DNA from: Planctomycetota bacterium
GTDB lineage: Bacteria; Planctomycetota; MHYJ01; JACQXL01; JACQZI01
Assembly (NCBI GenBank): GCA_016207825.1
Contig: JACQZI010000013.1
Span: 1-10,383, forward strand
Direction: 5' to 3'
Length of the DNA stretch: 10,383 nucleotides
A model generated the notes under the pieces. The model was given only the letters and a program-made list of their open reading frames with translations. It made no database searches and was not told the DNA's origin. This document shows positions 1,391 to 10,093 of this stretch, piece by piece (the stretch's first letter is position 1; each line of letters starts with the position of its first letter). A program made the translations under genes and the position numbers.

Positions 1391-2464
1391 ATGGAAGAGG
1401 TAAATAGACCACTTGGGGAAGGAGACCTGGCGGCAGTGCAGAAGCTTAAAAGCGCTTACGATAAAATGCGCTCTGAATTATCCCGCGCCATTGTCGGGCA
1501 GGAAAAAGTCCTGGAACAACTGCTTATTTCCATCTTTTCCAAAGGGCATTGCATCTTAATCGGCGTGCCGGGCCTGGCAAAAACATTGATGGTCCGCTCG
1601 CTCGCCCAGACCTTGTCGCTTTCATTCAACCGCATCCAGTTCACGCCGGACCTCATGCCGTCTGATATCACCGGAACGGACGTCATCCAGGAAGACCAGG
1701 CAACCGGACAGCGCTGCATGCAGTATATCAAGGGGCCGATTTTCGCCAACGTGCTTCTGGCGGATGAAATCAACCGCACCCCGCCCAAGACACAGGCCGC
1801 GCTCCTGGAAGCCATGCAGGAACTGCAGGTCACGGCCGGCGGCAAGAAATATACTTTGGAACAGCCTTTCTTCGTCCTGGCAACCCAAAACCCGATTGAA
1901 CAGGAAGGCACTTATCCCCTGCCGGAAGCGCAACTCGACCGATTCATGTTCAACATCATGGTCGAATACCCCAGCGAACAGGAAGAACTGGATATCATGA
2001 AACTTACCACCTCGCCGTTTGATATGACCTTAAACAAAGTATTAAACCGCGAAGAAATAATGCACCTGCAGGATATCGTCCGCCGGGTGCCCATTGCGGA
2101 TGTGGTCATGAAATACGCCATCAACCTAACCAGGCAAACCCGCGTCCATACGGAAATGGCGCCGGAATTTATCAAGGAATGGGTATCCTGGGGAGCCGGC
2201 CCGCGCGCCTCGCAATACCTCATTATCGGCGCCAAGGCACGGGCGGTCCTTCAGGGAAGGTATTACGTTTCCATCGAAGATATCCAGGCGGTTGCCCATC
2301 CGGTCTTAAGGCATAGGATTATCACCAATTTCTCCGCCGAAGCGGAAGGCGTCACCCCGAATAAGATTGTCGATAAGCTCCTGCAGATTACGCCGACTAC
2401 GGAAAGCGAGCTGACCAAGGATGAAAAACTTCCTGATGTGATTCAACCGAGCATAAAGGAGTAA
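1391..2464 (+). CDS. moxR: MoxR-family AAA+ ATPase
   Basis: This is a 357-residue cytoplasmic ATPase of the MoxR branch of AAA+ proteins. Walker A is GVPGLAKT (residues 58-65), Walker B is VLLADE (121-126), sensor 1 is in ATQNP (164-168), and the MoxR signature [13 protein letters not shown] follows at 173-185 with the arginine-finger candidate R184. The C-terminal part (about 240-335) matches the lid domain ([15 protein letters not shown] ... [10 protein letters not shown]). Length is slightly above the usual 320-340 because of short N- and C-terminal tails. MoxR ATPases are known to work as chaperone-like remodelers, often with VWA proteins, in metal-cofactor insertion or envelope stress. 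The next two genes encode exactly such VWA partners, 13 and 6 bases apart, so this is the energy-using member of the complex. Its specific client is not given by the sequence. Confidence 0.95.
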
Positions 2465-2477
2465 GGCGGGATAACCC

Positions 2478-3383
2478 ATGGAGAATTTTCAGAATTATTT
2501 AGACCCGCGTGTATTGAATAAAGTTGCCCGGCTGGAATTACGGGCACGCCTCATTGTGGAAGGCTTTATCGCCGGCTTGCATAAAAGCCCTTACCGCGGG
2601 GTAAGCGTGGAATTCGCCGCGCACCGTGAATACACTCCGGGTGATGACTTGAGACACCTCGACTGGAAAATCTTCGGGCGTTCGGACCGCCTTTATATAA
2701 AAGAATACGAGCAGGAAACCAATCTCTATTGCCATATCATGTTGGATACATCCGAATCAATGGATTATGCCTCGGGTGAAATTTCCAAGTTCGAATACGG
2801 GCGTTCGCTGGCTGCGGCGCTTGCCTACCTGGTCGTCCAGCAACAGGATGCAGTCGCACTGGAATTATTTGACCGTGAGATATATAAGGCCATACCGCCC
2901 AGCAGCAACCCGGCTCATCTTAACGCCATATTCAAGGAATTGAGCGAAGTAAAACCCACCAGGAAAACCGACGTCAAGGCAATTTCCATGGACATGACCG
3001 AACGGGTGAGGAAACGCGGTCTCGTCATCATCATCTCCGACCTTTTTGATGACCCCAACGCCATCTTAAAGGGATTGCAAAGACTCCGTTTTAAGGGACA
3101 GGAAATAATCATATTCCACCTGCTTGATGAAGCGGAAATGTCTTTCCCGTTTGACTGGATGACACGTTTTATCGGGCTGGAAGAATATCCAGATGTAGTC
3201 ACCGACCCCAGGCACCTGCGCCGTGAATATATCAATATCGTGCAGAATTTTATTACCACTTTGCGCCGCGGCTGCCTGAAAGAGCGCATTGATTACGTCC
3301 AGATTAGCACCGACCAGATGCTCGATGTGGCGCTAAGCGCATATTTAGCCACACGGCTGGCAACGCATAAAGCTAAGAAATAG
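2478..3383 (+). CDS. DUF58 / VWA-like protein (MoxR partner)
   Basis: This is a 301-residue protein with no signal peptide or membrane segment. The DUF58 hallmark EYTPGDDLRHLDWK lies at residues 51-64, followed by LYIKEYEQE (72-80). The downstream VWA-like fold carries a complete metal-site motif DTSES (90-94, DxSxS) and a second acidic loop SDLFDD (187-192). This is the common soluble DUF58 architecture found next to MoxR genes. It follows moxR by 13 bases and precedes the BatA-type gene by 6, so the three are co-transcribed. AAGGAG overlaps the end of moxR (2456-2461) but lies about 16 bases from the ATG, so translational coupling is likely. It presumably binds a divalent metal through the DxSxS site and acts as substrate adaptor for MoxR; that role is inferred from the family. 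Confidence 0.92.
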   Translation: MENFQNYLDPRVLNKVARLELRARLIVEGFIAGLHKSPYRGVSVEFAAHREYTPGDDLRHLDWKIFGRSDRLYIKEYEQETNLYCHIMLDTSESMDYASGEISKFEYGRSLAAALAYLVVQQQDAVALELFDREIYKAIPPSSNPAHLNAIFKELSEVKPTRKTDVKAISMDMTERVRKRGLVIIISDLFDDPNAILKGLQRLRFKGQEIIIFHLLDEAEMSFPFDWMTRFIGLEEYPDVVTDPRHLRREYINIVQNFITTLRRGCLKERIDYVQISTDQMLDVALSAYLATRLATHKAKK

Positions 3384-3389
3384 AATAAT

Positions 3390-5645
3390 ATGGGAAGTTT
3401 TATTAATCCGGGATTGGCATGGCTGACACTGGCCGGCGCGATTCCGATTATCATACACCTCTTGAACCGGCAGCGTTACCGTAAAATACGCTGGGCAGCC
3501 ATGGAATTCCTGCTTCAGGCGCTCAAGAAAACCAAGCGCCGCTTGCAGATGGAAAACCTGATTTTACTTATCATCCGTGTGATGATTGTCGTCCTCCTGG
3601 CATTTGCCCTGGCGCGCTGTTATTTCCAGGAAACACCCCTTGCCGCGCTCGGCACGACCGATACCCACGCCTTTATCATCATTGATAATTCCTACAGCAT
3701 GGGTTATAAAATAGGGAAAAACTCCGTTTTTGATACGGCTAAAAATATCGCCAACGGGCTGGTTGACAAACTAAAACCATCCCATAAAGATAAGGCATCA
3801 TTAATCGCCCTTTCCTCCAAACCTTCCATTGTGGTGAGCGAAGCCAGCGCCAACATGGAACTGGTCAAGAAATCGCTTGCCAATATGGAACTCTCCCATT
3901 ACGCAACGAGCTGTTACGAAACTTTCCTGGCAATCCAGGATTTGGTCAAGCGTTCCAATTCATCACGCAAGATTATTTATCTCATCACGGATTGCCAGCG
4001 TTCCGGCTGGATAGTCCGCGACGAAAACCGCGCGAAATTCACCGATATCCTGGCTGAACTCAGTGGCAAGGCGGAAGTAAAAATCATAGATATCGGCATG
4101 AAAGACGCCGTTAATACCAATGTCAACGGCATCCGTTCCTTAAACCGCATCATCCGCACCCAGAAAACCGCCAATTTCGAGGTGGAGGTGAATAACTTCA
4201 GCCCATCGAGCCTTGCCACCCTGGAAGTAAGTTTCTATGTGGACGACCTTAAGCATAATAGCGCTTCCATCCCGGTCGGCCAATATGGACTTGGCGTGGT
4301 CAGTTTCCCGTATGAATTCGCCGAACCCGGTTCGCATCAAGTAAAAGCGATCCTGGAAGCCGATAACCTGGAACAGGATAACACCCGCTACCTTACCGTG
4401 GACGTGCGCGAATCCGTCCGGGTACTCGTGGTGGATGGCGAACCTTCGGCAGATCCTTACGAAGACGAAACAATGTATCTGAAATACGCGCTCCAGCCTT
4501 CGCGCATCGACGTGGAAAGGTTCAGCATCTACGCAATTGATACGGTTTCCGATATCGTCTTTGAAGAAACCGATATCTCCAAATACGACCTGGTCATCAT
4601 GGCGAACCTCGAATACGTCTCGCAGGACAAGCTGAAAAAGCTGGAAGAATTCGTCCGTTCCGGCGGCGGCCTTTTAATATTCCTGGGCGACAAGGTTGAC
4701 CGCATTTTCTATAACCAGTCGCTCTACAGGAACGGCGAGGGACTCCTTCCGGGCGAGCTGATTGAAATACTCGGCGATAAGGAACACCAAACTTACACGC
4801 GCCTGGAAAAAGCGGATTTCAACCACGAAGCGCTCAGTTATTTCCTGCCTATCAAGGACTACCTTACCCGCGTATTCATCTATGAATATTACCGGATGAA
4901 AGTACCCGAGCCTTCGGCGGAGGAAAAAGACAAACCGGAAAACAAGGACCTGCCCGAGATGACGACCGGTCAGGCGGGAAATAAAAATATCCGCGTGCTG
5001 GCGCGCTATAACGATACGGACGAAAACCCGGCAATCGCGGAAAAACTCTTTGGCAAGGGAAAAGTGATTGCCGTAACCACTGCCGCGGACATAGAATGGA
5101 ATAACCTGCCGGCAACGCCGGGCGGAGTGATACTCTACGACCAGTTGGCGAAATTCCTTTCCACCCCTGACGTCGGCTTTAAAAATATCTCGGTCGGCGA
5201 GCCTTTGAAACTGATTATAAAACCATCCGAATTCAGCCCAACCTTTTCCCTGATAATGCCGGAACGCGGGATAAAATCGCTCTCGCCCGAACCGCTTCCC
5301 GGGGAACAGGGTTTTGCCCTTACCTGCCCGGAAAACGATACGGGACGTGCCGGTTTTTATACGCTGGATAAACTCGATGCCGATGAACAATCCAAACTCT
5401 TTACATATTTTGCGGTAAACCTTAACCCAACCGAAGGCGACCTTAAGAAAATATCAGAAGAAGAATTAAAGCAATTATACCCTTCGTTCAAGTTTGAACT
5501 CTTCAGCCAGTTTAACGAGCAATCCGCCCAATCAATAGCCAAGCCGCCGGCAAGTAATATCTGGAAATACCTTATCTGGACGGTTCTGGTGCTGCTGGCC
5601 ATGGAAACCGTCTTAGCCCAGCGTTTCGGCTCGGCGAAGAAATAA
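3390..5645 (+). CDS. BatA-type membrane VWA protein with glutamine-amidotransferase-like domain
   Basis: This 751-residue protein starts with the BatA/aerotolerance N-terminal domain: a first membrane segment near residues 8-25, the typical HLLNRQRYRKIRWAAMEFL stretch (23-41), then a second membrane segment (about 57-76). A VWA domain follows (93 to about 240) with MIDAS motif DNSYS (99-103), a threonine candidate near T173 and LITDCQ (198-203). A beta-rich region (250-340) leads to a class I glutamine-amidotransferase-like fold (344-435: VRVLVVDGEPS, YDLVIMANLEYV, FVRSGGGLLIFLGD). No Cys-His-Glu triad is obvious, so this fold is probably structural. A charged Glu/Lys/Pro-rich insert lies at 506-530, then GKGKVIAVTTAADIEWNNLP (555-574), typical of long planctomycete homologues. 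A C-terminal membrane segment (about 726-742) ends in a short basic tail. It is probably the membrane anchor of the MoxR/DUF58 system. No clear Shine-Dalgarno site is present; the 6-base gap suggests coupling. Confidence 0.88.
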   Translation: MGSFINPGLAWLTLAGAIPIIIHLLNRQRYRKIRWAAMEFLLQALKKTKRRLQMENLILLIIRVMIVVLLAFALARCYFQETPLAALGTTDTHAFIIIDNSYSMGYKIGKNSVFDTAKNIANGLVDKLKPSHKDKASLIALSSKPSIVVSEASANMELVKKSLANMELSHYATSCYETFLAIQDLVKRSNSSRKIIYLITDCQRSGWIVRDENRAKFTDILAELSGKAEVKIIDIGMKDAVNTNVNGIRSLNRIIRTQKTANFEVEVNNFSPSSLATLEVSFYVDDLKHNSASIPVGQYGLGVVSFPYEFAEPGSHQVKAILEADNLEQDNTRYLTVDVRESVRVLVVDGEPSADPYEDETMYLKYALQPSRIDVERFSIYAIDTVSDIVFEETDISKYDLVIMANLEYVSQDKLKKLEEFVRSGGGLLIFLGDKVDRIFYNQSLYRNGEGLLPGELIEILGDKEHQTYTRLEKADFNHEALSYFLPIKDYLTRVFIYEYYRMKVPEPSAEEKDKPENKDLPEMTTGQAGNKNIRVLARYNDTDENPAIAEKLFGKGKVIAVTTAADIEWNNLPATPGGVILYDQLAKFLSTPDVGFKNISVGEPLKLIIKPSEFSPTFSLIMPERGIKSLSPEPLPGEQGFALTCPENDTGRAGFYTLDKLDADEQSKLFTYFAVNLNPTEGDLKKISEEELKQLYPSFKFELFSQFNEQSAQSIAKPPASNIWKYLIWTVLVLLAMETVLAQRFGSAKK

Positions 5646-5676: not shown

Positions 5677-5880
5677 ATGATAACCAGCACAACTTATCAA
5701 CTGGAAGGATACCGCATTATCGAATACAAAGGGTTGGTCACGGCACAGCCGGCGTTTAAGACGGCCGGTTCTTACAAGCGCTTGCTGGAAGATGCCGAAA
5801 AGTTAGGCGCGAACGCCGTTATCGGAATCCGCTTTAATGACATGTGGTATGGCACCGCGGTAGTCGTAAAACCTGTATAA
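5677..5880 (+). CDS. Miniature YbjQ/UPF0145-like protein (putative heavy-metal-binding)
   Basis: This is a 67-residue cytoplasmic protein. The N-terminus STTYQLEGYRIIEYKGLVT (residues 4-22) and the C-terminal half DAEKLGANAVIGIRF (39-53) plus YGTAVVV (58-64) match the start and end of the YbjQ/UPF0145 (DUF74) family. Family members are usually about 105 residues; here the central part that normally joins the two halves is shortened by roughly 40 residues. The reading frame is intact and has a plausible ribosome site (GAGG at 5668-5671), so this looks like a compact variant and not a decayed gene. It begins 31 bases after the BatA-type gene with no terminator between them, so it probably belongs to the MoxR operon. 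Full-length relatives form oligomers and are called heavy-metal-binding by annotation only. A function with the VWA metal-site proteins is a guess. Confidence 0.75.
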   Translation: MITSTTYQLEGYRIIEYKGLVTAQPAFKTAGSYKRLLEDAEKLGANAVIGIRFNDMWYGTAVVVKPV

Positions 5881-5882
5881 TC

Positions 5883-5910
5883 AAAGCCGTTTGCATGCTT
5901 TTATGAAAGC
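5883..5910. terminator. Weak bidirectional hairpin region between converging genes
   Basis: AAAGC (5883-5887), GCTTT (5897-5901) and AAAGC (5906-5910) allow two mutually exclusive 5-bp stems in the 20-base gap between the converging stops and the end of the HEAT gene. The stems are short and lack a strong T-run on either strand, so terminator function is uncertain. Confidence 0.25.
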
Positions 5911-6665
5911 TGTTTCAGCGCAGCTTGGGCGCGTTGGCTTTCGTGCCTGCGCCAGGTGATATCAGCCACGGCCTTGATATCGGCCTGCAATTCTTTGGTG
6001 ACTCTTTCCTTTAAGCCCATTTCGACCAGTGCAATCGCCGCCGCGCCGCGCACATACCGATTATTATCCGCGGTCAGCTTGATGATATCCGGAATGAGCT
6101 CGCTGGCGCACAGATTGCTTAAGGCGTAGAGAGTGTTGGCGCGGACCCAGTTATTTTCATCCTTCATCAGCTTGACGATATGCGGTATGCACGTTTTGGC
6201 GCCGAGCTTGCCCAAAGCCAAAACCGCCGCGCCGCGCACCCATTCATCTTCATCAGCCAATAATTTTATGATATCGGGAATCGCCTTGGTATGATTAAGT
6301 TCACCCAGCACGAATATAGCCGAACTCCTTATTTTCACGTTTTTACTCTTAAGGAGTTTAAGTATTTGCGGGACAGATTCCTGCGCCCCTAATTTACCCA
6401 AAGCAAGTATCGCCGCCACGCGGACATCGTCATCCGAATCATTTACCAGTTTGGCAATTGCCGGGATTGATTTCCGGCTTTCGAGCTTCACCAGTATGCG
6501 AATGGCTGATTCACGCACGTGGCCTTCGTCATCGCGGAGCAATTTAGTCACTTCGGGAATAGACTCTTGCAGTCCCAGCTTGACAATCTCATCCGCCGCG
6601 GATTGGCTCACCTCCGCATCCTCGCTCCTTACCATGCTGATTAATTCGTTTAAATGCTGGTTCAT
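5901..6665 (-). CDS. HEAT-repeat protein (seven 31-residue repeats)
   Basis: This 254-residue protein has no signal peptide. It consists of seven tandem helical repeats with an exact 31-residue period: LNELISMV at 5, then IPEVTKLL 36, IPAIAKLV 67, VPQILKLL 98, IPDIIKLL 129, IPHIVKLM 160 and IPDIIKLT 191. Each is followed by a DxxxxVRxxAxxAL helix. This is the bacterial HEAT_2 / PBS-lyase-type repeat. Such proteins are scaffolds that bind other proteins; the partner cannot be read from sequence. The charged tail (about 219-254: ITWRRHESQRAQAALKQLS) departs from the repeat and may cap the solenoid. The gene converges with the ybjQ-like gene (20-base gap) and follows the GH20-like gene on the same strand, but it has its own strong promoter. 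No Shine-Dalgarno site precedes the ATG. Confidence 0.9.
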   Translation of the reverse strand: MNQHLNELISMVRSEDAEVSQSAADEIVKLGLQESIPEVTKLLRDDEGHVRESAIRILVKLESRKSIPAIAKLVNDSDDDVRVAAILALGKLGAQESVPQILKLLKSKNVKIRSSAIFVLGELNHTKAIPDIIKLLADEDEWVRGAAVLALGKLGAKTCIPHIVKLMKDENNWVRANTLYALSNLCASELIPDIIKLTADNNRYVRGAAAIALVEMGLKERVTKELQADIKAVADITWRRHESQRAQAALKQLS

Positions 6666-6708: not shown

Positions 6709-6718
6709 GACTAATTAC

Positions 6719-6801
6719 ACACCCCTAACCCCTCTCAAGAGGGGAATTTTAAGTCCCCTCTAACAAGAGGGGATGCCCCCGTCTAAACGGGGCAGGGGTG
6801 T
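6719..6801. repeat. 83-bp cloverleaf-like palindromic element
   Basis: An outer stem ACACCCCT (6719-6726) / AGGGGTGT (6794-6801) encloses three hairpins: CCCCTCT/AGAGGGG at 6729-6744, the same stem sequence with loop AACA at 6755-6772, and CCCCGT/ACGGGG with loop CTAA at 6777-6792. Beyond the outer stem the flanks still resemble each other (CTAAT on the left, ATTAG on the right). It lies in the gap between the GH20-like stop (6833) and the HEAT promoter, so it may also stop or stabilise the GH20-like transcript. A dispersed repeat family is likely, because a 12-base copy of its right end recurs at 10243-10254. Confidence 0.65.
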
Positions 6802-6832
6802 ATTAGTAAATTTGTCATAGATTATAAGAAAG

Positions 6833-9800
6833 TTATTTATTGGATTCGAGGTTGCCCCGGAAGATGCGCGGCAGGCCGATAAGGTTATATGTCGCGGAAA
6901 GCCGGTGCAACAGGTTAAACTCATCGCCCCTGGTCTTGTCCGCAAAGATAATAAAATGCGAAAGGGATGTTTTATCTTCATCAACACCCAATCTATCGGA
7001 AGAAACATAAAGCGCTGTGTTATTATCCGGGCTCATGAAGCCAAACGTTAATCCTTCAGGCAAAAGCTTAGCCGCCCATCCGACCGCTGTTTCCGAAAGC
7101 ATTTTTTCGCCTTGTTTGGGCGATTTCCCGTTAAAGTAGTTGGAAAAGAGGAATCTACCGTGTTTATTTATTGAAGACAGGTTATCATAATTATCCAGTT
7201 TCCCGATACAGCGGGAAAACATGATATCTGCCATGGGAAGATTATGGAAGAAATTGAAAGTCCGCCTCGCTCCCGCACCGTCTTTTGATTCAGCGCGGTA
7301 ACGGACCATAATCGGACCGTTTGCCTCAAGGGTAAACAAAAACTCTTTGTCTCCGGGGGCGGTAAAGAAACCCTCGTTTTCGGCAACAATCTGCTCGCCG
7401 GACTTTTTCACCAGCCACTGGCTTATCCGCGCACCCTTCGGATTTATTTCCACCTTCATCCGCTCATTTTCCACCCATTTACTACCTTTTTTATCATAGG
7501 TTTTTAACCCCTTTATGTTATAATCAGCCTGTTTTTTGGGACCGTTCTTTAAGGCGTCAAAATATATGTAAAAACGGCGCGCAGTACCCGGCTTCCAATC
7601 GCCCCCGGCTATCCAGACAAGATTACCGATTGCATTATGCCTGGTATTAAAATTATTGCCCGGGTCGAATTGGCATGGGATATCCACCTGCCCTTTGGTT
7701 GTTTCCTCAATCATCCTGACAGAGTTTTTATCGAATTCTTTTCCGACACTTTCAGCCGGGACGCCGCTCCGCTCCGTTTCTTTAAGGAGTTCTGAAAAGT
7801 TGATGGTTATTTCAAGCGGATAATCCATACGCCCAACAGCGCTGGCATTCCTTGTATCTAAAGGCAATTCGGCATTAAGCATCAGGCGGTATTGCCAGTC
7901 ATTATTCCACCAAACTGGGATTTTAGCGATTTCGGTTGCCGGGAGAATTGGCAATAACCGGATGATGCGGTTTGATAATTCCTTTTCCTGGAAATCAAGC
8001 TCTGCCGGTTCCGGAATTTTACCGGATAAAGGAAAATCTTCTGCTGTATGCGCCAGCATCTTTTGTTTTTCACGGTATATTTTTGCCATTCCTTCGAAGC
8101 GTTTCATTACTTCATCTTTTATGCCCGGCAAATAAATACGGCTATATAAGGCGGTATAGTCTGCTTCAAAGCGTTTGAGCTGGTTTTCCAACGTATTAAG
8201 CACGGTCTTGACTTCACCCAGTTTCATCAAAACCATGTGGCGGACATCCCGCCATTCGCTATAGAATTCCCGGTATTTGGACATGAGATTATGAGCAGTG
8301 CGGTATTTATCCACCAAAAACTGCCAGCGTTTAGTGGCAAAGGCGAGGTAATCCAGGTTATCCTTTCGGCGGCATGCCTTGTTTTTTATAAGTTCAATCA
8401 GTTTAAGCGCGTTATTGGCGCATTCCTTGGTATCCTTAAGGCGTTCGTAGAAATCCGGTACGGTCAAGTGGAATCGCGAATTAAACGGGTCGTCCCAAAA
8501 GATGCCAGTAGCATCATCCGGAAAGTTCAAAAGCTCCGCAGGCTTATAAAGATATTCGGCTATCTTAGCGAATTCCTCATCGCCCGCCCCGTAAAAGCTC
8601 CTGGTAAACTTCTTCTTGAAGTATTTTTCATCCGCCCCATCGGGAATCCAGGCACACTCTGATGCCCAGGCAACCGGAAACCACTCCGTTTCCATCCAGT
8701 CCTCTCCCGCGCCATGCCATGCACCGCAAACCATCATGCCTTCAATATTCGCCTCGGCGCCCTTGGTAATAAATCCGCGGATGTTCCGGAAGGCGTCCGG
8801 CATCATGGGAAACGCGCGATTAGTTGAACAAACTGAAGGGCAGATAAACTGACTTATCTTCTGGTTTTTAAACGGGTCAATCAGTTTTCCATAATCATTC
8901 TTCGGGGAATCCGAATAATTCATAACGATAATATTATTCGGCAATAAAGGTATCAGGCGCTCCGCTTTCAAAGGCATATCCGACCAGACCATCATCTGCT
9001 TGCTGAAACCCAATAATATCTTATTCAGGCGGTTGATGTGGTTAATCCATTTGTCAGGCGCGCTTACCTGGGTGGAGGAATCTATTCCGGCTTGCGCCTC
9101 CGCGTAGCCTTCACAATTGACATTAAAGAACTCGGACTTGTATGCCGGCACGATTTCCGAATATAAATCGGACAGTAATTCGTATGTTTTCTCCTTCATG
9201 GGGGAAAGCGCGGTTGGATTTTCCCCATCTTCGGCAATCGTTGTGTCGGTTGAGGAAAGCACCTTATCCCAATGGGTGAGCGATTGTAAATTACCGACAA
9301 GCTCGATATTATTCAAGGCGCAGTATTTGGAAAGCCTGGACAGGTCTTCCGGAGTAAGCGCTTCAGCCCTAGACAATTTAGGATATTTGGAAAACCTGAA
9401 TGCTTGCGGCTCGGTATAAAGAGAGAGCATATTGAATTTATAGAAGCCGAGTGTGGAGACGATTATTTCCAGGTATTCCTTTTTAGGGAAGGGGTTATCG
9501 CTGATATCGAGCTGAAAACCTCTTCTTTTATAGACGGGCGTGTCGCGGATAAGGAGCGGAGGGACAATCACCTCTCCGGCTTCGGCATATAAACTCTGGC
9601 GCAGGGTCTGGACGCCGTAATAGACGCCGGCCGAATCGTTGGCGAGGACAAAAATATAATCCGGTGAAATATCCATGACATACCCTTCATTACCCAGCCA
9701 TTGCTGGACAAAGACGCCTTTGGTTGTGGTGCGGTGCATGATGGATTTATCCCGCGCGGGAACGCCGAGGATGATTACATTATTATCATTTTTTACCAAG

Positions 9801-10093
9801 GTATCATCAACCGCAATGCGGACATCGACATTATAAATATCTTTGAGGTCGTCTTTAAGGAGTTGTGCGCTGTAGCGGTCTTTTTCGCTTGATGTGCTTT
9901 CCAGGACTATTTTCCATTCTTTATGGAGATGGGCATGGGACAAATCTTTCTTCTCTATTATCCGGGGCTGGGGGATGATAGCCAAGGGGAATTTAGGCCG
10001 TGCGATATCATTTTTCCATCCGCTTGCACAGGAAAGATGTGCTATGGCAAACAGGCATAATACCGCAATAGCAAAAGCAGTAATACTTTTCAT
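6833..10093 (-). CDS. Exported GH20-like protein (divergent active site, DUF2341-like C-terminal part)
   Basis: This is a 1086-residue exported protein. A signal peptide covers residues 1-23 (hydrophobic AFAIAVLCLFAIAHL). C22 has His at -3, so a lipobox is poor and ordinary signal peptidase cleavage is more likely. Residues about 36-180 match the GH20 N-terminal zincin-like domain (AIIPQPRIIEKK, NDSAGVYYGVQTLRQSL). A GH20-type barrel follows (about 188-500): YKRRGFQLDIS, YKFNMLSLY, MMVWSDMPL and GMMVCGAWHGAGEDW. The usual Asp-Glu catalytic pair is missing: the matching strand reads FNVNCEGY (323-330), so hexosaminidase activity is doubtful. A charged helical region (about 550-700, coiled-coil-like) precedes a beta-rich C-terminal part that begins WWNNDWQYRLML (728-739) and includes RRFYIYFDA, a pattern like DUF2341. 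A role in glycan binding or breakdown at the cell surface is inferred. The gene is monocistronic, with its own promoter and no Shine-Dalgarno site. Confidence 0.85.
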   Translation of the reverse strand: MKSITAFAIAVLCLFAIAHLSCASGWKNDIARPKFPLAIIPQPRIIEKKDLSHAHLHKEWKIVLESTSSEKDRYSAQLLKDDLKDIYNVDVRIAVDDTLVKNDNNVIILGVPARDKSIMHRTTTKGVFVQQWLGNEGYVMDISPDYIFVLANDSAGVYYGVQTLRQSLYAEAGEVIVPPLLIRDTPVYKRRGFQLDISDNPFPKKEYLEIIVSTLGFYKFNMLSLYTEPQAFRFSKYPKLSRAEALTPEDLSRLSKYCALNNIELVGNLQSLTHWDKVLSSTDTTIAEDGENPTALSPMKEKTYELLSDLYSEIVPAYKSEFFNVNCEGYAEAQAGIDSSTQVSAPDKWINHINRLNKILLGFSKQMMVWSDMPLKAERLIPLLPNNIIVMNYSDSPKNDYGKLIDPFKNQKISQFICPSVCSTNRAFPMMPDAFRNIRGFITKGAEANIEGMMVCGAWHGAGEDWMETEWFPVAWASECAWIPDGADEKYFKKKFTRSFYGAGDEEFAKIAEYLYKPAELLNFPDDATGIFWDDPFNSRFHLTVPDFYERLKDTKECANNALKLIELIKNKACRRKDNLDYLAFATKRWQFLVDKYRTAHNLMSKYREFYSEWRDVRHMVLMKLGEVKTVLNTLENQLKRFEADYTALYSRIYLPGIKDEVMKRFEGMAKIYREKQKMLAHTAEDFPLSGKIPEPAELDFQEKELSNRIIRLLPILPATEIAKIPVWWNNDWQYRLMLNAELPLDTRNASAVGRMDYPLEITINFSELLKETERSGVPAESVGKEFDKNSVRMIEETTKGQVDIPCQFDPGNNFNTRHNAIGNLVWIAGGDWKPGTARRFYIYFDALKNGPKKQADYNIKGLKTYDKKGSKWVENERMKVEINPKGARISQWLVKKSGEQIVAENEGFFTAPGDKEFLFTLEANGPIMVRYRAESKDGAGARRTFNFFHNLPMADIMFSRCIGKLDNYDNLSSINKHGRFLFSNYFNGKSPKQGEKMLSETAVGWAAKLLPEGLTFGFMSPDNNTALYVSSDRLGVDEDKTSLSHFIIFADKTRGDEFNLLHRLSATYNLIGLPRIFRGNLESNK

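Follow-up and report, generated by a model that had tools for sequence, protein, structure and literature searches.

A GH20-like protein lacking the Asp-Glu catalytic pair in an order of Planctomycetota

The streptococcal GH20C/GcnA enzymes, known from S. pneumoniae (5a69/5a6k) and S. gordonii (2epk), are the closest solved structures to the predicted model of the protein described here (5a6k: VIA Z 35.3, rmsd 3.0, 563 residues), and in both an N domain, a barrel and a helical domain follow each other in the same order. GH20C/GcnA possess an Asp-Glu pair, which aligns to the catalytic columns in the A5 profile, together with the sugar pocket. In the GH20 enzyme of Vibrio harveyi, each of the substitutions D437A and E438A left less than 0.5% of the activity (0.05 and 0.07 vs 19.4) (PMC4752478). 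The planctomycete protein differs from GH20C/GcnA in having Glu-Gly in place of Asp-Glu and in carrying a long extra C-terminal beta-rich domain. Its gene lies in the window, that is, the whole 10,383-base contig that was analysed, which comes from a draft genome of 2.89 Mb (97.6% complete).

Domain layout and gene surroundings

The gene and its parts are as follows.

6833..10093, minus strand: ORF of 1086 aa for a four-part protein with predicted export (ORF translation, Pfam, AlphaFold), in the order signal sequence, GH20b-like domain, GH20-like barrel, helical domain and C-terminal beta-rich domain
10028..10093, minus strand: N-terminal hydrophobic helix, about residues 1-22, likely export signal (helix 2-22 in AlphaFold; sequence comparison)
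9542..9982, minus strand: GH20b-like N domain, residues 38-184 (PF02838, 4.6e-17)
8594..9541, minus strand: GH20-like (beta/alpha)8 barrel, residues 185-500 (PF00728; AlphaFold pLDDT mostly above 90; VIA match to 5a6k as above)
9104..9127, minus strand: FNVNCEGY, residues 323-330, at the end of barrel strand 4, the lost Asp-Glu site, now E328-G329 (translation, alignment)
7994..8593, minus strand: helical domain, residues 501-700, whose counterpart in the Verrucomicrobiota proteins L034/L035 was found to be Glyco_H_20C_C (PF18088) (Pfam, AlphaFold)
6836..7948, minus strand: C-terminal beta-rich domain, residues 716-1086 (WWNNDWQYR ... WVENERMKVEI ...)

The GH20b domain scores 63.4 bits over residues 38-184 against a Pfam cut-off of 26.1, keeps its conserved residues and is 36-41% identical between the window and the other families of the order. 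The GH20 catalytic domain profile (PF00728) matches residues 188-395 (1.1e-10, 41.9 bits against a cut-off of 22.3). The AlphaFold model (pLDDT 87, pTM 0.81) contains a complete barrel of eight strands (residues 190-196, 222-226, 264-268, 322-324, 366-370, 389-394, 414-420 and 452-457), the fourth of which ends just ahead of E328. With both profiles above the Pfam cut-offs and a predicted barrel that superposes on solved GH20 structures, the protein belongs to GH20 by fold and descent. Moreover, the hydrophobic N-terminal helix, which in the relatives G004, G001 and G006 is closed by a lipobox-like LAGC or FSGC, suggests that the product is an exported protein or a lipoprotein. The C-terminal domain matched no enzyme family in Pfam or PDB by sequence; the PDB sequence search gave only short WD40 matches with no passing stretch, and these were taken as chance.

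The gene directly downstream on the same strand (5901-6665, minus) encodes a HEAT-repeat protein of 254 aa, which does not accompany the orthologue in any of the other genomes. The intergenic stretch between the two genes, at 6718-6806, consists of short near-palindromic repeats (CCCCTCTCAAGAGGGG, CCCCTCTAACAAGAGGGG, CCCCGTCTAAACGGGG). Upstream of the GH20-like gene, at the contig end (10254-10379), a 22-base unit, GGTAAGGCCGAAGGTATGATAC, is repeated in tandem in about 5.4 copies. The plus strand carries genes for a MoxR AAA ATPase, a DUF58 protein and a BatA/vWA protein in a row (1391-5645), and residues 384-466 of the BatA-like ORF additionally match Glyco_hydro_42M. Next comes a small ORF of about 67 aa (MITSTTYQLEGYRIIEYKGLVTAQPAF..., 5677-5881, plus), which we take to resemble a YbjQ/UPF0145-type protein. 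In G003 and G005 the orthologue adjoins a GspF/PilC-like gene, as read from sequence. Overall, the neighbours vary between the genomes of the order, and no functional partner is indicated by gene neighbourhood.

The Asp-Glu site and the sugar pocket

The window protein was aligned with its 7 orthologues from the order and 95 other relatives, found within the phylum or by scanning 84,980 species (103 proteins in all). The Asp column holds D in all 95 relatives outside the order and E328 in the window; the Glu column holds E in 93 of them and G329 in the window. The original prediction, that residues 323-330 read FNVNCEGY and that the pair is not intact, is thus borne out. It had offered two registers for the change; the ungapped one, D-E to E-G, is right because the aligned Asp and Glu columns fall on E328 and G329, and the one-residue shift to C327-E328 finds no support in these columns. 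The two exceptions in the Glu column, L023 (G096; HIGGDGARFLG) and L028 (G077; HVGGDHTRFLG), are both from Planctomycetota and stand elsewhere in the tree. Both belong to family f54; they keep the Asp but have Gly or His for the Glu, possibly as a second, separate loss of GH20 catalysis.

Of the columns that reach at least 80% conservation in the 95 outside relatives, the window protein keeps D184, R191, D196, K219, N221, E228, H274, W370, D372, P385, N437, G452, W459 and W482, which include the structural columns (D184, R191, K219, N221, G452 and W482) and the pocket residues R191, D196, H274, W370, D372 and W459. The -1 sugar pocket is not intact, however, and besides the pair and some of its neighbours the losses are R199D, W393Y, Y395D and D461G. 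When the pocket is placed by analogy with established GH20 structures, the losses appear to cluster at the sugar position. Furthermore, five of the seven other orthologues have a different residue in place of H274, and the clade as a whole shows no conserved pocket. Since both residues of the pair and further pocket residues are changed, it is very unlikely, judging from the sequence, that the protein acts as a hexosaminidase through the known substrate-assisted mechanism.

Orthologues, phylogeny and predicted folds

Eight of the nine genomes in the order carry one orthologue each, and the pair is intact in none of the eight, which come from draft or metagenome assemblies (G001, G004 and G005 are partial). 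Family f1 (the window and G001) has E-G at the catalytic columns, with E328 and E332 in both sequences, and family f4 (G004 and G006) has A-E, so that the Glu is kept. In family f3 (G003, G005, G007 and G008) the catalytic columns have no alignable residues, because the column or the whole unit is missing: the segment from strand 3 to strand 5 is short in G003, G005 and G008, where the strand 4/helix 4 unit is lost, and G007 has a strand 4 remnant, IAVTLQGD. The form in G005 is shortened, with a frame of 733 residues. The sequence L033 is that of G006 (Candidatus Brocadiaceae, Hainich isolate) and L038 that of G008 (Candidatus Brocadiia, DeMMO4), and these labels place the organism of the window in the Planctomycetota. 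No second GH20 was detected by PF00728 in the nine genomes of the order. GH3 (PF00933) was not detected in the window's own genome, with working controls, and profile searches for GH84 (PF07555) and for the anammox marker HZS_alpha matched no control.

The model of L038 (pLDDT 82) has strands at residues 192-198, 223-227, 248-252, 276-280, 299-304, 348-353 and 389-397, and a low-confidence junction at 255-267 in place of strand 4 and helix 4, so that a barrel of seven strands is predicted. VIA gives GH20C as its best match (Z 20.7, rmsd 3.5, 460 residues); GH115, ranked first by Foldseek with an rmsd of 14, was set aside as a fold relative because VIA puts GH20C first. The barrel had been described from the window sequence as well kept, which holds for the eight-stranded window model but does not extend to the three relatives of the order that lack one strand-helix unit.

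In a tree computed with the motif columns left out, the eight orthologues form one clade (bootstrap/SH-aLRT 100/100), which is sister to L034/L035 of Verrucomicrobiota (100/97), and a larger quick tree agrees. It had been proposed that uniform loss of the pair among close homologues would define a non-canonical clade, and this is the pattern found, with all eight orthologues lacking the pair and monophyletic. The sister proteins L034/L035 have an intact CDETFELG and the full C-terminal extension and match the window protein over nearly its entire length; GH20s with an intact site from other Planctomycetota and from Armatimonadota carry the extension too. On this sequence comparison, the four-part architecture is older than the loss of the Asp-Glu pair, since it is shared with relatives in which the site is intact.

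Retention of the gene and its possible roles

The weighing of explanations begins with the state of the sequence itself. The window genome is a draft, and the changed pair could in principle come from a sequencing or assembly error; however, CEGY is also read in G001, which is 74% identical and was assembled separately from another genome of the genus, and this makes a base-calling error unlikely, and the other six orthologues of the order lack the pair too, so we regard this origin as extremely improbable. That the gene is merely decaying after loss of function could be read from the barrel deletions of family f3 and the shortened form in G005. Against this, dN/dS between the window and G001 is 0.14 for the whole protein and 0.11-0.15 by domain, with 0.11 for the barrel and 0.12 for the GH20b domain, values that are rough because synonymous sites are near saturation in parts; all eight genomes have open frames without inner stops, and the gene is retained in eight of the nine. 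The value of 0.11 in the barrel speaks for purifying selection and hence for a gene that is not decaying, and decay is very improbable. A clade (100/100) in which none of eight members has the pair intact and in which the barrel is under purifying selection presents the two marks of a pseudoglycosidase, clade-wide loss of catalytic residues and selective maintenance.

The remaining alternatives keep an enzymatic function. The protein might still be a glycosidase with a rearranged site acting on another sugar, for example one in which E328 or E332 serves as the acid without the help of an Asp. The presence of both glutamates in the two f1 sequences, the Glu itself in G004 and G006, and R191, H274, W370, D372 and W459 in the window would fit such an enzyme, but no acidic residue at the site is common to the order (E-G, A-E or a gap), the strand 4/helix 4 unit is absent in three orthologues, and R199, W393, Y395 and D461 are lost as well. 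This is improbable. The original prediction stands in part: the non-canonical clade is found and a pseudo-enzyme is the best reading, whereas the different mechanism it had also allowed is disfavoured, because the replaced site varies between the families (E-G, A-E, deleted) and offers no substitute acid common to the eight. Catalysis might instead reside in the C-terminal beta-rich domain, for example as a lyase- or epimerase-like activity, with the barrel serving only as a holder. Invariant positions in the clade make up 16% of the GH20b domain, 13% of the C-terminal domain (47 positions, 12.8%), 9% of the barrel and 6% of the helical domain, so conservation of the C-terminal domain comes close to that of GH20b and exceeds that of the other two, and the domain is found in intact GH20s of other phyla. 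Yet in these intact relatives it stands beside a GH20 site that is itself intact, in the manner of an accessory domain, and its sequence matches no enzyme family in Pfam or PDB; we give this possibility the same small chance as a rearranged site.

Considering this, we think it probable that the window gene codes for an exported GH20-derived pseudo-enzyme, kept as an envelope-attached scaffold or a glycan-binding protein, although the Glu kept in G004 and G006 and the part of the sugar pocket that persists in the window protein speak against a pseudo-enzyme. Absence of hexosaminidase activity is strongly indicated, whereas export and the binding or scaffold role are what we infer with less firmness; purifying selection suggests that the protein most likely works without hydrolysis. 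On this reading it descends from a GH20 hexosaminidase of four parts whose Cys-Asp-Glu site was intact, as it is in the sister proteins of Verrucomicrobiota. The substrate-assisted mechanism was then lost in the ancestor of the planctomycete order: replacement or deletion removed the N-acetyl-polarising Asp and the proton-donating Glu, and the -1 pocket lost tryptophan, tyrosine and acidic residues too. Purifying selection retained the protein, most likely for a non-hydrolytic role at the envelope, either as an attached scaffold or in glycan binding; the parts under selection would be the GH20b domain, what remains of the barrel and the C-terminal beta-rich domain. If glycans are bound, the C-terminal domain is as likely a site as the old pocket. 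For the wider course of events, we see about an even chance that throughout the order the single GH20 detected has become an envelope protein without enzymatic function, in a graded series that runs from point changes at the Asp-Glu pair to removal of the strand-helix unit that carried it, leaving a seven-stranded barrel that still folds.

By descent and fold the window protein belongs to the GH20C-like branch of GH20; by the catalytic residues that define the GH20 hexosaminidases, it falls outside them. Pfam GH20 matches in such genomes should not be taken as chitin or glycan degradation. In this clade the active site is lost in graded steps while selection continues, and a sister group with the site intact allows comparison; the clade could reveal what the GH20 fold is kept for without hydrolysis and whether a (beta/alpha)8 barrel survives the loss of one unit. 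That sister group, L034/L035 from groundwater MAGs, shares the four-part architecture with the window protein (31% identity over about 1000 residues) but has CDETFELG intact, together with the pocket columns lost from the window protein. No GH20 pseudo-enzyme or pseudo-GH20 clade was found in the literature searched, which is no proof that none has been described, and the pseudo-enzymes of glycoside hydrolase families described in one review come mostly from animals and parasites (PMC7828330). The window protein may be likened to a pseudoglycosidase of the kind known from GH18 (YKL-39) and from the GH33-related CyRPA; like these and the pseudo-CE4 domain of PgaB, it has kept a carbohydrate-active fold while catalysis appears to be lost, whereas they belong to other enzyme families and have known roles in binding or invasion (PMC7828330).
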